Shown here: one piece after another, positions 4,038 to 34,140 of the stretch | Position numbering within the stretch: position 1 is the stretch's first letter | How the letters are laid out: every line of letters begins with the position of its first letter | Assembly: GCA_902756345.1 (NCBI GenBank) | Contig: CACVQR010000020.1 | Location: 1-45,506 of the forward strand | Source: Fibrobacter succinogenes | GTDB taxonomy: Bacteria > Fibrobacterota > Fibrobacteria > Fibrobacterales > Fibrobacteraceae | Direction: 5' to 3' | Length of the DNA stretch: 45,506 nt | Position numbers and translations under genes: made by a program | Notes under the pieces: model-generated | Told to the model about the DNA's origin: nothing | The model's input: the letters and a program-made list of their open reading frames with translations, nothing else | The model's database searches: none

Positions 4038-4104
4038 TTAGAAGTAGGAAGTAGGAAGTAGGAAGGAAAAATTTGAAATTGACCTTCCTGCTTCTACAGA
4101 CTAC
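4038..4104. repeat. Heptad repeat element, GTAGGAA type, inverted arms
   Basis: The left arm has three perfect GTAGGAA copies at 4044-4064. The right arm at 4084-4104 is CTTCCTG CTTCTAC followed by AGACTAC, roughly the reverse complement. The arms can pair as a long imperfect hairpin around a 16-base spacer. The element starts 5 bases after the dnaK stop. Confidence 0.8.
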
Positions 4105-4175: not shown

Positions 4176-4210
4176 ACTGTTTACTGTCTACTTCCTACTG
4201 TCTACTAATG
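4176..4210. repeat. Heptad repeat array, ACTGTCT type, before dnaJ
   Basis: Five units with an exact 7-base step: ACTGTTT, ACTGTCT, ACTTCCT, ACTGTCT, ACTAATG. The array ends 14 bases before the dnaJ ATG and runs into a small hairpin, ATGCC-GAA-GGCAT. Confidence 0.8.
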
Positions 4211-13994: not shown

Positions 13995-15008
13995 TCAAGC
14001 AAAGAAATTGAAACTTGTCTTTTTGAGTTCTCTTAGGGAATTCAGAACGGCATAACCGGGGTTGCCTATAGACTGGGCAGCCTCTTTTATGTAACGGTCC
14101 AAATCTTCGGCTGACTGGGCATGCATCATGGCGTACAGCGTGTACGGGAAACCTTCAAAAGCAGGGCGATTGTAACAATGTGAAATGTAAGGCTTGCTTG
14201 CAAGAATTGCCCCAGCAGGATTAACCGAGTTCCTGTCTACTGACCACTGTCTACAGTCTACTGTTTCCGCAAAGCAGACCATCGCATTAAAAGCAAAACC
14301 GGCCTCTTGATGTCTAAGAATCGCCCCGAAACGGCGCATCCGTCTTAACGCCAAGTCTTCGCGGAGTTCGTCACACGAAACATCCCAATCCTTGAACGGG
14401 GTGAGGGTGTGAGGAATATCGGTGCAGGCGATACGGATACGGGCTCTGTCATTTGCGGATAAAAATTGGGCAGGAGATTGCTTCGCCTTCGGCTCGCAAT
14501 GACGTTTTTCGTCACCAATTCTGTTTGCTGGTGCGCCAGCACCCCCCATCACCGTGTTAATCTTGAACTTCTCGGTCGCATTTAGGATATGGACATCGTG
14601 CAGTTCCGTATTCGCACAAACTTCATCGACTATCTTTTGAATCTCCGCTTCGGATTGGGCCATGACCGTAAACCACACGTTATATTCGTGGCTGCGCAGA
14701 TAATTATGAGTTATCGCAGGAATTTGATTAACGACTTCAGCGAAAGCCTCTAAGGCTGAATCGTCGGCAGCGCCGGAAACGGTTGACGGCACCTTGCCCG
14801 CGCAAAGGCGTGAAATAAAACCGAGCGCCTTGGAATCATAAACTCCCCCAATACGGCGGATTATACCCGACTGGCGCAAATTCTCGACCGCGGCAAAAAC
14901 GCTCTGTTCGTCGGAGCCAAGCTGCTCCGCCAACACCAGATACGGGCGTTCTTCCAAAGGAAATGCGTCCTGGATGATAGCGAGAAGATGCTGTTCAAGT
15001 TCAGTCAT
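13995..15008 (-). CDS. Siroheme decarboxylase, AhbA-AhbB fusion (Lrp/AsnC-like)
   Basis: This 337-residue protein has two Lrp/AsnC-like halves. The first (about 1-155) has a helix-turn-helix with SGIIRRIGGVYDSKALGF and a ligand-type domain. The second (about 195-337) shows the AhbB/NirD signature LRRMRRFGAILRHQEAGFAFNAMVCF, SHCYNRPAFEGFPYTLYAMMH. AhbA and AhbB together decarboxylate siroheme to 12,18-didecarboxysiroheme. The next gene upstream on this strand is ahbC, the following step. Two repeat-derived segments are translated in frame: residues 169-179 (RHCEPKAKQSP) from a REP-like repeat in the linker, and residues 248-259 (ETVDCRQWSVDR) from a heptad array inside the second half. A NirDL-like role in heme d1 synthesis is the alternative; no other nir genes are seen. 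Confidence 0.8.
   Translation of the reverse strand: MTELEQHLLAIIQDAFPLEERPYLVLAEQLGSDEQSVFAAVENLRQSGIIRRIGGVYDSKALGFISRLCAGKVPSTVSGAADDSALEAFAEVVNQIPAITHNYLRSHEYNVWFTVMAQSEAEIQKIVDEVCANTELHDVHILNATEKFKINTVMGGAGAPANRIGDEKRHCEPKAKQSPAQFLSANDRARIRIACTDIPHTLTPFKDWDVSCDELREDLALRRMRRFGAILRHQEAGFAFNAMVCFAETVDCRQWSVDRNSVNPAGAILASKPYISHCYNRPAFEGFPYTLYAMMHAQSAEDLDRYIKEAAQSIGNPGYAVLNSLRELKKTSFNFFA
14232..14266. repeat. Heptad repeat array, ACTGTCT type, inside a coding region
   Basis: Five units with a 7-base step: CCTGTCT, ACTGACC, ACTGTCT, ACAGTCT, ACTGTTT. It matches the array before dnaJ (4176-4210) but lies in frame within the siroheme decarboxylase gene, encoding residues 248-259. Confidence 0.85.
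14473..14503 (-). repeat. REP-like repeat inside the siroheme decarboxylase gene
   Basis: Minus-strand CGTCATTGCGAGCCGAAGGC followed by GAAGCAATCTCC, the same family as in hemC. It encodes RHCEPKAKQSP in the linker between the two halves of the protein. Confidence 0.8.
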
Positions 15009-15010
15009 AC

Positions 15011-15078
15011 GAATGTGAAATGTGCGATGAGTGATGTGAAATGATCAATTACTCATTCCACATTACACATTTGAAATT
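15011..15078. repeat. Heptad repeat element, GATGTGA type, inverted arms
   Basis: The left arm (15011-15045) has five units such as GAATGTG, AAATGTG, TGATGTG. The right arm (15051-15078) has ACTCATT, CCACATT, ACACATT, TGAAATT. The arms are roughly reverse complements around CAATT. The right arm supplies the last codons and stop of ahbC (SNV, TAA at 15065-15063). Confidence 0.8.
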
Positions 15079-16238
15079 TCTTCGTCGGTCAGGTAGCAGG
15101 CCGGGTCCTCTTCCCAGAAATCGCCCGTTACAGCCTCGGCGCGGGTACGGAAGTTTCCGTTACAGAGATTCAGGTAGGCGCACTTGGGGCAGCGTCCCTT
15201 CAGAATCGGCTTACGGTTCTTGAGGCCCGCCATAATCGGGTTCGACACGTCGCTCCAGATTTCGCCGAAGCTTCGTTCACGCACGTTACCGAGCGTAATA
15301 TACTGCGTAAACTGGTCGGGGTGAACGTTTCCGATGCTATCAATATTACCGAAGGCCATGCCGCTGCGGTTTCCGCCATTACGCTGAATGAGTTCTAAGA
15401 CTTTTTCGGCACGGGCCGGATCTTCGCGCTTCATGCGCAGGTAAAGGTAAACGGCATCGGCGTGGTTGTCGACTGTAAGTATTTCCTTGTTGATTCCGCG
15501 CTTCTTGAAGTCGAGCGTACGGTCAATAATCAAGTCCATTGCCTTGCGGCTTTCATCGTGATTCAAGTCGTTTTGAACCATGGCAGAGCCGCGACCGCTG
15601 TAAACCAGGTGATAGAAGCACACGCGGTCAATATTTTCAGCTTCGAGCAAATCGAAAATAGCGTTCAAGTCTTGCATGTTGTAGCGCGTAATCGTAAAAC
15701 GCAGGCCCACCTTCTGGCCAGTCGCCACACAGTTGCGGATACCGCGAAGAGCAAGTTTGTATGCGCCTTCCTTGCCGCGGAATTTATCATGAGTCGCTTC
15801 GCAGCCGTCCAAACTGATGCCCACGTAGCCCACACCCATGTCCTTGAGTTTCTTTGCAACATCGGGCGTAATGCAGGTACCGTTCGTGCTGATTGTCGGG
15901 CGAATGCCTTTAGAGGCTGCATAATTTGCCAATTCAAAAAAGTCCGGGCGCAAAAGCGGTTCACCGCCGCTAAAGAGAATCACCGGAACCTTGAAATCGG
16001 CCAACTGATCAATTAAAGCCAAGCCTTCTTCGTGGGTCAGTTCGTTCTGGTACTTAATGGCCTCGGATCGAGCATAGCAGTGCACGCAACTCAAGTTGCA
16101 GGTCTTGGTGCAGTTCCACACCACCACAGGGCCACGGCCCGGCGCAACGCCGTTCTTGCATTCATGGGCCTTGGGTTCGTAACGCAGTTGATCCCCGTAA
16201 TTCGGGGTATCCATCAAGAGCTTGGTAATACTGATCAT
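15063..16238 (-). CDS. ahbC: Radical SAM 12,18-didecarboxysiroheme deacetylase (AhbC/NirJ-like)
   Basis: AhbC removes two acetate side chains from didecarboxysiroheme to give iron-coproporphyrin III, an anaerobic step. The 391-residue protein opens with SITKLLMDTPNYGDQLRYE, as in this subfamily, followed by VVVWNCTKTCNLSCVHCYA with the radical SAM cluster cysteines C47, C51 and C54. Further features are the SGGEPLLRPDF motif, ISLDGCEATHDKFRG, and C-terminal Cys (CPKCAYLNLC, DPAC) for auxiliary clusters. NirJ of heme d1 synthesis is the close alternative. It is transcribed with the siroheme decarboxylase gene downstream; AhbD, for the final step, is not in the window. The last three codons lie in a heptad repeat. 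Confidence 0.85.
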   Translation of the reverse strand: MISITKLLMDTPNYGDQLRYEPKAHECKNGVAPGRGPVVVWNCTKTCNLSCVHCYARSEAIKYQNELTHEEGLALIDQLADFKVPVILFSGGEPLLRPDFFELANYAASKGIRPTISTNGTCITPDVAKKLKDMGVGYVGISLDGCEATHDKFRGKEGAYKLALRGIRNCVATGQKVGLRFTITRYNMQDLNAIFDLLEAENIDRVCFYHLVYSGRGSAMVQNDLNHDESRKAMDLIIDRTLDFKKRGINKEILTVDNHADAVYLYLRMKREDPARAEKVLELIQRNGGNRSGMAFGNIDSIGNVHPDQFTQYITLGNVRERSFGEIWSDVSNPIMAGLKNRKPILKGRCPKCAYLNLCNGNFRTRAEAVTGDFWEEDPACYLTDEEISNV

Positions 16239-19422: not shown

Positions 19423-19430
19423 AAGATAAA

Positions 19431-19499
19431 TTCAGAATTCTGAATTCGGATTTCGGAATTTTTCTTCCAACTCTGAATTCTGAATTCCGAAATCTGAAC
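19431..19499. repeat. Heptad repeat element, TCTGAAT type, inverted arms
   Basis: The left arm has TTCAGAA, TTCTGAA, TTCGGAT, TTCGGAA (19431-19458). A 13-base spacer follows. The right arm has TCTGAAT, TCTGAAT, TCCGAAA, TCTGAAC (19472-19499). Every unit is exactly 7 bases, and the arms are imperfect reverse complements. It fills the whole gap between the 19499-20782 gene and mnmG. Confidence 0.9.
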
Positions 19500-20782: not shown

Positions 20783-20828
20783 ATTGAATCTCCTTAGAGA
20801 AATTTTTTCCGGGGAATAATATAGAAAA

Positions 20829-20863
20829 AGTAGGAAGTAGGAAGTAGACGGTAGGAAGTGTGG
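20829..20863. repeat. Heptad repeat array, AGTAGGA type
   Basis: Five units: AGTAGGA, AGTAGGA, AGTAGAC, GGTAGGA, AGTGTGG. It lies about 45 bases upstream of the thioredoxin-like lipoprotein gene. It is the same word family as at 4038. Confidence 0.8.
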
Positions 20864-22759: not shown

Positions 22760-22794
22760 TTAGACGAGAGACGAGAGGCGAGAGACGAGAGAAA
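22760..22794. repeat. Heptad repeat array, AGAGACG type
   Basis: Five units: TTAGACG, AGAGACG, AGAGGCG, AGAGACG, AGAGAAA. It lies between the peptidase stop (22806) and the proS promoter region. The word is unique in this window but the 7-base period is the same. Confidence 0.8.
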
Positions 22795-34098: not shown

Positions 34099-34140
34099 CC
34101 TCATACCTCACTTCCTACAGTCTACTTCCTACCGCCTACT
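34099..34140. repeat. Heptad repeat array abutting a start codon
   Basis: Six units: CCTCATA, CCTCACT, TCCTACA, GTCTACT, TCCTACC, GCCTACT, ending on the base before ATG 34141. The word drifts from the CTTCACA type to the CTGTCTACT type while the 7-base step holds. Confidence 0.85.

Follow-up and report, generated by a model that had tools for sequence, protein, structure and literature searches.

Degenerate heptad repeats of a genus-wide family, probably tolerated in frame, in a loop of the Fibrobacter AhbA-AhbB siroheme decarboxylase

The window, by which we mean the whole 45,506-nucleotide stretch of DNA analysed here, from the rumen bacterium Fibrobacter succinogenes, carries on its minus strand a fused ahbA-ahbB gene for siroheme decarboxylase (13995..15008, 337 aa). 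Its reading frame is open, the NCBIfam models for AhbA and AhbB both score above their cut-offs, and the conserved core is present. Pfam assigns a NirDL-like HTH and AsnC_trans_reg2 to the product, and Foldseek ranks NirDL (4ch7) and AhbA/B (4czd) at the top for its predicted model. The gene adjoins a NirJ1/AhbC-like radical SAM gene at 15063-16238. Its codon-bias score is near zero, unlike that of the neighbouring genes. Outside the loop and the linker described below, dN/dS against relatives is 0.07-0.10, and no internal stop was found in 30 orthologue matches; the decay by frameshifts that the earlier note had held out as a contrary outcome was thus not seen. Judged from the sequence, the AhbA-AhbB fusion is intact and under purifying selection.

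Within this gene, the recognisable core of a tandem repeat lies at 14232..14266 (plus strand), where the letters read directly as five degenerate heptads, CCTGTCT, ACTGACC, ACTGTCT, ACAGTCT and ACTGTTT. TRF calls the repeat at 14233-14264 with a period of 14, a score of 43 and ~83% matches. Three ACTNNCY units followed by ACT, with at most three mismatches allowed, occur 12 times in the window, versus 0.05 expected from dinucleotide shuffles. The word ACTGTCT alone is not enriched in the window (4 versus 3.05 expected), and the enrichment belongs to the array as a whole. The heptad array postulated in the earlier note is therefore borne out by the sequence, by TRF and by the pattern counts. 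So is its placing of the array in frame at residues 248-259, between NAMVCF and SHCYNRP; these residues are ETVDCRQWSVDR. The strand fold of the coding array is no better than that of shuffles (z +1.24), for which reason we rejected a hairpin role; the array is a direct repeat of 35-42 bp. At the array, neither terminal inverted repeats nor a target duplication was seen.

Further ACTNNCY arrays are found elsewhere in the window. An intergenic one at 4176..4206 (plus strand; TRF and pattern) precedes dnaJ and is present in G030, a close relative, and missing from G010, G005 and G003; in line with the ACTGTCT words that the earlier note saw in both, it belongs to the same family as the ahbB array, and the identity of DnaJ was confirmed. 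The pattern search returned another intergenic array in the opposite orientation at 4041..4065 (minus strand), made of ACTTCCT units, and TRF and the pattern search agree on arrays at 20828..20859 (minus strand) and 34110..34140 (plus strand). The units of the family differ at positions 4-7, as in ACTTCCT, ACTGTCT, ACTGCCT and ACTAACC. An intergenic AGACGAG array at 22762..22792 (plus strand) represents the heptad family that other species carry in the AhbB loop.

The ahbAB gene holds a second repeat, CGTCATTGCGAGCCGAAGGCGAAGCAATC, at 14476..14504 (minus strand), which is palindrome-like, tagged with CGTC, and codes for RHCEPKAKQS in the linker between AhbA and AhbB; one more copy, intergenic, occurs in a 1.245-Mb sample of the genome. 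In the AlphaFold2 model, which was built on a 20-sequence alignment and is of modest confidence (mean pLDDT 65), linker residues 152-210 fall below pLDDT 50. So do residues 250-261, between a strand at 240-246 and a helix at 264-270. The segment corresponds to a 9-residue gap against 4czd_B and is likewise missing from 4ch7. The suggestion in the earlier note that the insert sits in a loop is thus supported by a predicted, low-confidence strand-to-helix loop that is missing from solved AhbB structures. Nor is the segment conserved in distant AhbB proteins, the other outcome that would have spoken against the note; it is missing there and in some nearer relatives.

How the frame is kept becomes apparent from the lengths between the flanks, which are 81 bp each in the window, G030 and G010, 60 bp in G005 and 39 bp in G003. 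The net insert is hence 42, 21 or 0 bp, that is, 6, 3 or 0 heptads, with three heptads equalling seven codons. Against the empty relative G003, the window carries a net in-frame insertion of 42 bp at ~14226..14267 (minus strand), six heptads encoding residues 248-261, and this 14-residue insert is common to the window, G030 and G010 with one substitution. The earlier note had supposed a 35-base array supplemented by extra bases; the frame is indeed kept, yet there are no odd extra bases, the insert being six heptads in full. This is the only clear 21-bp length series found. YidC was considered as a second clean case and rejected, as other indels contribute to its length differences. For an intergenic array, one example of the step size is 73 bp in G030 versus 80 bp in G005.

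Length is one part of frame keeping, and the stop codon inherent in the repeat is the other. Read on the coding strand, a unit is RGNNAGT, and a consensus array accordingly has TAG at each unit junction, one of them in frame per 21 bp. In the window, the in-frame slot at 14244..14246 (minus strand) is TGG (W255) where the consensus has TAG, and derives from one ACTGACC unit. Codon inspection revealed a second in-frame slot, TCG (S261), at 14226..14228 (minus strand), which our slot count did not pick up because this end of the array is too degenerate. Across 19 ahbAB arrays, none of the in-frame slots is TAG, versus 39/67 of the out-of-frame slots, in counts that include shared ancestry and one doubtful match (L125). 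The in-frame slots of the other ahbAB arrays hold TGG, TTG, TTA, CTG or TCG, and this variety of five escape codons points to more than a single event. When intergenic arrays are read over 31 nt, 13/120 frames are open on the ahbAB-type coding strand versus 108/120 on the other, and only 8 of ~209 intergenic units have the terminal CC that gives rise to TGG. Frame is thus kept because length moves in three-heptad units (0/21/42 bp) and because the in-frame TAG slot is mutated.

Alignment of ~49 orthologues showed that the AhbB loop varies from 15 to 55 aa and accommodates at least six repeat families, all read through in frame. ACTNNCY heptads occupy it in the window and in orthologues L002-L004, L012, L120, L132 and L134, and AGACGAG heptads in L008, L014, L018 and L115. 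Palindromes encoding VILS...KD are found in L016, L119, L140, L014, L114, L115 and L134, RHSD...EESS repeats in L011, L129 and L136, a CHPRAGGD palindrome in L127 and VRQAHQP repeats in L017. The linker behaves similarly, with RHCEPKAKQS in the window and L002 and heptads in many other orthologues. The array had been presented in the earlier note as a particular insertion; it is indeed absent from distant and some near relatives, but the same loop and linker take other repeat families, and we dropped the reading of a one-off insertion after the alignment. On the protein tree, all repeat labels together need 10 changes, and 100 of 200 label shuffles were as low, indicative of no clustering; the heptad-loop label alone needs 6 changes, no fewer than shuffled labels (mean 6.8). 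L006, which is empty, and L115, which bears AGACGAG heptads plus a REP palindrome, are sisters with support of 100/97, and L114, with a REP-type palindrome in its loop, is nested among heptad-bearing relatives. By this orthologue comparison, repeats settle recurrently in both the AhbB loop and the AhbA/AhbB linker, where heptads of several families and REP-like palindromes take one another's place from species to species. The heptad loop arrays of the window, L012, L120, L132 and L134 may all stem from a single old insertion.

Other proteins show comparable loops. In one loop, RNase HII contains ACTAACC heptads in our genome (G000) and G010; L197 and L204 have AGACGAG heptads there, read from the opposite strand, and L214 and L217 have VILN...NEGS. 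An RluA-family pseudouridine synthase (G000 C4:193201-194295, corresponding to L158:13201-14295) has three heptad arrays, AGACGAG, TTCGGAA and AGACGAR, in the linker between its S4 and catalytic parts, and G003, G005 and G010 are without them. The N-terminal linker of YidC carries AATTCCG heptads in our genome and L271, not in G003, G005 and G010. RNase HII, YidC and the RluA-family synthase show the same repeat swapping as the AhbB loop. Repeats of the VIASEAKQS type occur in linkers of lipoproteins, and also in an ABC transporter and in an Eco57I-like methylase. Separately, a TilS-like gene (G000 C3:38911-40152) holds TCACACC-type heptads in frame (TPHTSHPTPHTPYL).

We surveyed the family by pattern searches and in sampled stretches totalling 1.245 Mb (37% of the genome), with genes called by a home-made caller. 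Over the whole genome, at up to two mismatches, the ACTNNCY pattern matches 513 times versus 2 for the reversed pattern. Among periods 5-22, no short period unrelated to codons is abundant except period 7 and its multiples 14 and 21. The sample contains 72 intergenic and 4 coding period-7 arrays; of its 61 ACTNNCY arrays, 48 are intergenic, 11 lie at a gene edge and 2 are inside a CDS (ahbAB and RNase HII). As ~88% of the sample was called coding, this amounts to strong exclusion of the arrays from genes. Of the 15 sampled genes whose end lies within 3 nt of an ACTNNCY array, 12 use TAG, versus ~26% expected; such arrays seem to provide genes with their stop codons.

The genomes compared are mostly draft and metagenome assemblies, one per species. 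At up to one mismatch, ACTNNCY is present in 35/37 genus genomes, in neither G029 nor G034, and thinly in a few others; within the genus its abundance runs from 0 in those two up to 707 matches in G006. The reversed control pattern is abundant in G008, G009 and G011, which points to the existence of further heptad families. The AGACGAR family occurs in 36/37 genus genomes and in 0/23 outside, and the GTCATCCTGAG...GAAGGATC palindrome family is distributed over the genus in a like manner. A 16-mer search for exact repeat families returned only heptads in our genome; the REP-like families needed degenerate patterns.

Taken together, we consider it probable that the insert is a copy of the genus-wide, mostly intergenic ACTNNCY family, lying in frame in a disordered loop of AhbB and tolerated there. 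From its replaceability we infer neutrality, so that the insert would be a non-autonomous repeat, tolerated rather than used. Purifying selection would leave coding arrays only in permissive protein loops. Those that survive would change length in three-heptad steps (21 bp, 7 codons), and persistence in coding DNA would need the in-frame TAG, one per 21 bp, to turn into a sense codon. A single ancient heptad insertion followed by vertical decay, losses and later overwriting, with no recent spread, seems to us a rather doubtful account, and still the strongest of its rivals. It draws on a GTAGACAG(TCG)GAACTCGG-like sequence common to L012 and the window, and on linker heptads with a GCGCCAGTAGACAGTAG-like start in two deep clades. 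It fits poorly with the nested position of L114 and with the empty L006 as the sister of L115, and other window sites were clearly gained recently. At 19427-19499, for instance, there are 73 bp in the window versus the 6 bp (AGCGAT) held by G030, G010 and G003, and this comparison clearly marks the site as one where a whole array was recently gained, the relatives being empty. This 73-bp stretch is an inverted pair of AATTCTG-type heptads with an RNA fold z of -4.7.

That the peptide has been co-opted, for instance to make a new contact, to regulate the enzyme or to stabilise it, strikes us as improbable. The near-identical 14 residues in the window, G030 and G010 would suit it, whereas sister species carry unrelated peptides at this place in a loop of such variable length, the region is predicted to be disordered, and the same repeats recur in unrelated proteins. 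We give still less credence to a phase-variable contingency locus in which heptad slippage switches ahbAB on and off. A heptad is not a multiple of three, so a change by one unit would shift the frame, and array length does vary between species; however, the length states differ by 21 bp with none out of frame, the orthologue matches are free of internal stops and the ~49 orthologue loops are in frame, degenerate units at ~83% matches slow slippage, and siroheme decarboxylase is no surface structure. An assembly or sequencing artefact can be virtually dismissed: tandem repeats are prone to misassembly, yet an insert of identical size, 42 bp, stands in three separate species genomes and is short relative to the reads.

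With a tolerated copy of the family as the preferred reading, the question is how arrays move. At several intergenic sites they have come in as complete arrays or been exchanged. Replacement at existing sites would probably proceed by homologous recombination between relatives. An example may be the intergenic heptad hairpin at 15009..15074 (no strand assigned), between ahbC/nirJ1 and ahbAB, in place of which G010 has an array of the ACTGTCT family. The window and G003 are identical there at 65/66 bases, though G030 is the closer relative. Such disagreement with the species tree suggests that alleles pass from one species to another by homologous recombination. Seeding of new sites would need a further process beyond homologous recombination. 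Polymerase slippage, which has been put forward as a source of heptamers (PMC4692102, PMC4679880), does not by itself account for the recurrence of identical unit families at numerous sites. Origin as RAYT-driven REPs was rejected for our genome, since a search for RAYT (Y1_Tnp, PF01797) gave no match in G000, with 5/14 control genomes positive. We put forward only tentatively, as a somewhat unlikely scenario, that an active Fibrobacter process, perhaps with an enzyme of its own, writes heptad arrays and CGTC/GTCATCC palindromes at fresh places and continuously overwrites permissive loops of essential proteins in frame. Elsewhere in the window, inverted heptad arrays at 31264-31345 fold into a strong hairpin with seven T after it and look like a terminator built of heptads.

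Several known systems invite comparison. Rickettsia palindromic elements are ~150-bp units that encode a conserved peptide (PMC10969869). Like them, the Fibrobacter repeats are both intergenic and in frame in unrelated housekeeping genes, where they are probably tolerated. In contrast to those elements, one class of the Fibrobacter repeats consists of tandem heptads of 21-42 bp whose encoded peptide is not fixed, and one and the same loop takes different families; the heptad array thus falls outside the definition of such an element as a ~150-bp palindrome with a conserved peptide. GTAG/CGTC REPs are short palindromes, some located in coding regions, and the CGTC type has no known transposase (Di Nocera 2013, PMC3733652). 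In two species of Xanthomonas, recB has different REPs at nearly the same position (PMC3733652). The linker repeat of the window begins with CGTC like the latter type, whereas the heptad arrays are not palindromic, and Di Nocera 2013 (PMC3733652) makes no mention of Fibrobacter. MITE insertions such as QMITE1 of Coxiella contribute coding sequence (PMC10969869), and Fibrobacter repeat DNA likewise adds protein residues, albeit without the terminal inverted repeats or target duplication.

Known heptamers include GGGAATC of Xanthomonas and GGGGAYT of Nostoc (PMC4692102), TAACTGA of Beggiatoaceae (PMC4679880) and the cyanobacterial STRR. With the STRR/LSSR heptamers, the Fibrobacter arrays share a period of 7, hundreds of copies, a mostly intergenic location and a variable number of units. 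They differ in unit sequence, in the coexistence, within a single genus, of several families of degenerate units, and in their repeated replacement at orthologous coding loops with escape at the stop slot. The open literature, subscription journals lying outside this scope, yielded no account of heptads or in-frame repeats from Fibrobacter. As far as that literature shows, in-frame exchange of heptad arrays at orthologous protein loops is apparently new.

These unrelated repeats amount to a natural insertion scan over ~50 species, which marks tolerant loops of AhbAB, RNase HII, YidC and RluA-type enzymes. They also show what it takes for a 7-bp repeat to persist in coding sequence, namely three-unit steps together with escape at the in-frame stop slot. 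The notion of selfish DNA residing in genes, familiar from Rickettsia, thereby reaches a remote phylum and takes in tandem heptads as well. The spread of ACTNNCY abundance within the genus offers a handle for finding the heptad generator, and with close species bearing filled and empty sites at hand, the question of how heptamers are generated in bacteria becomes testable. An active repeat-writing process, if true, would place Fibrobacter beside Rickettsia as another case, independent and larger, in which repeat DNA turns into protein.
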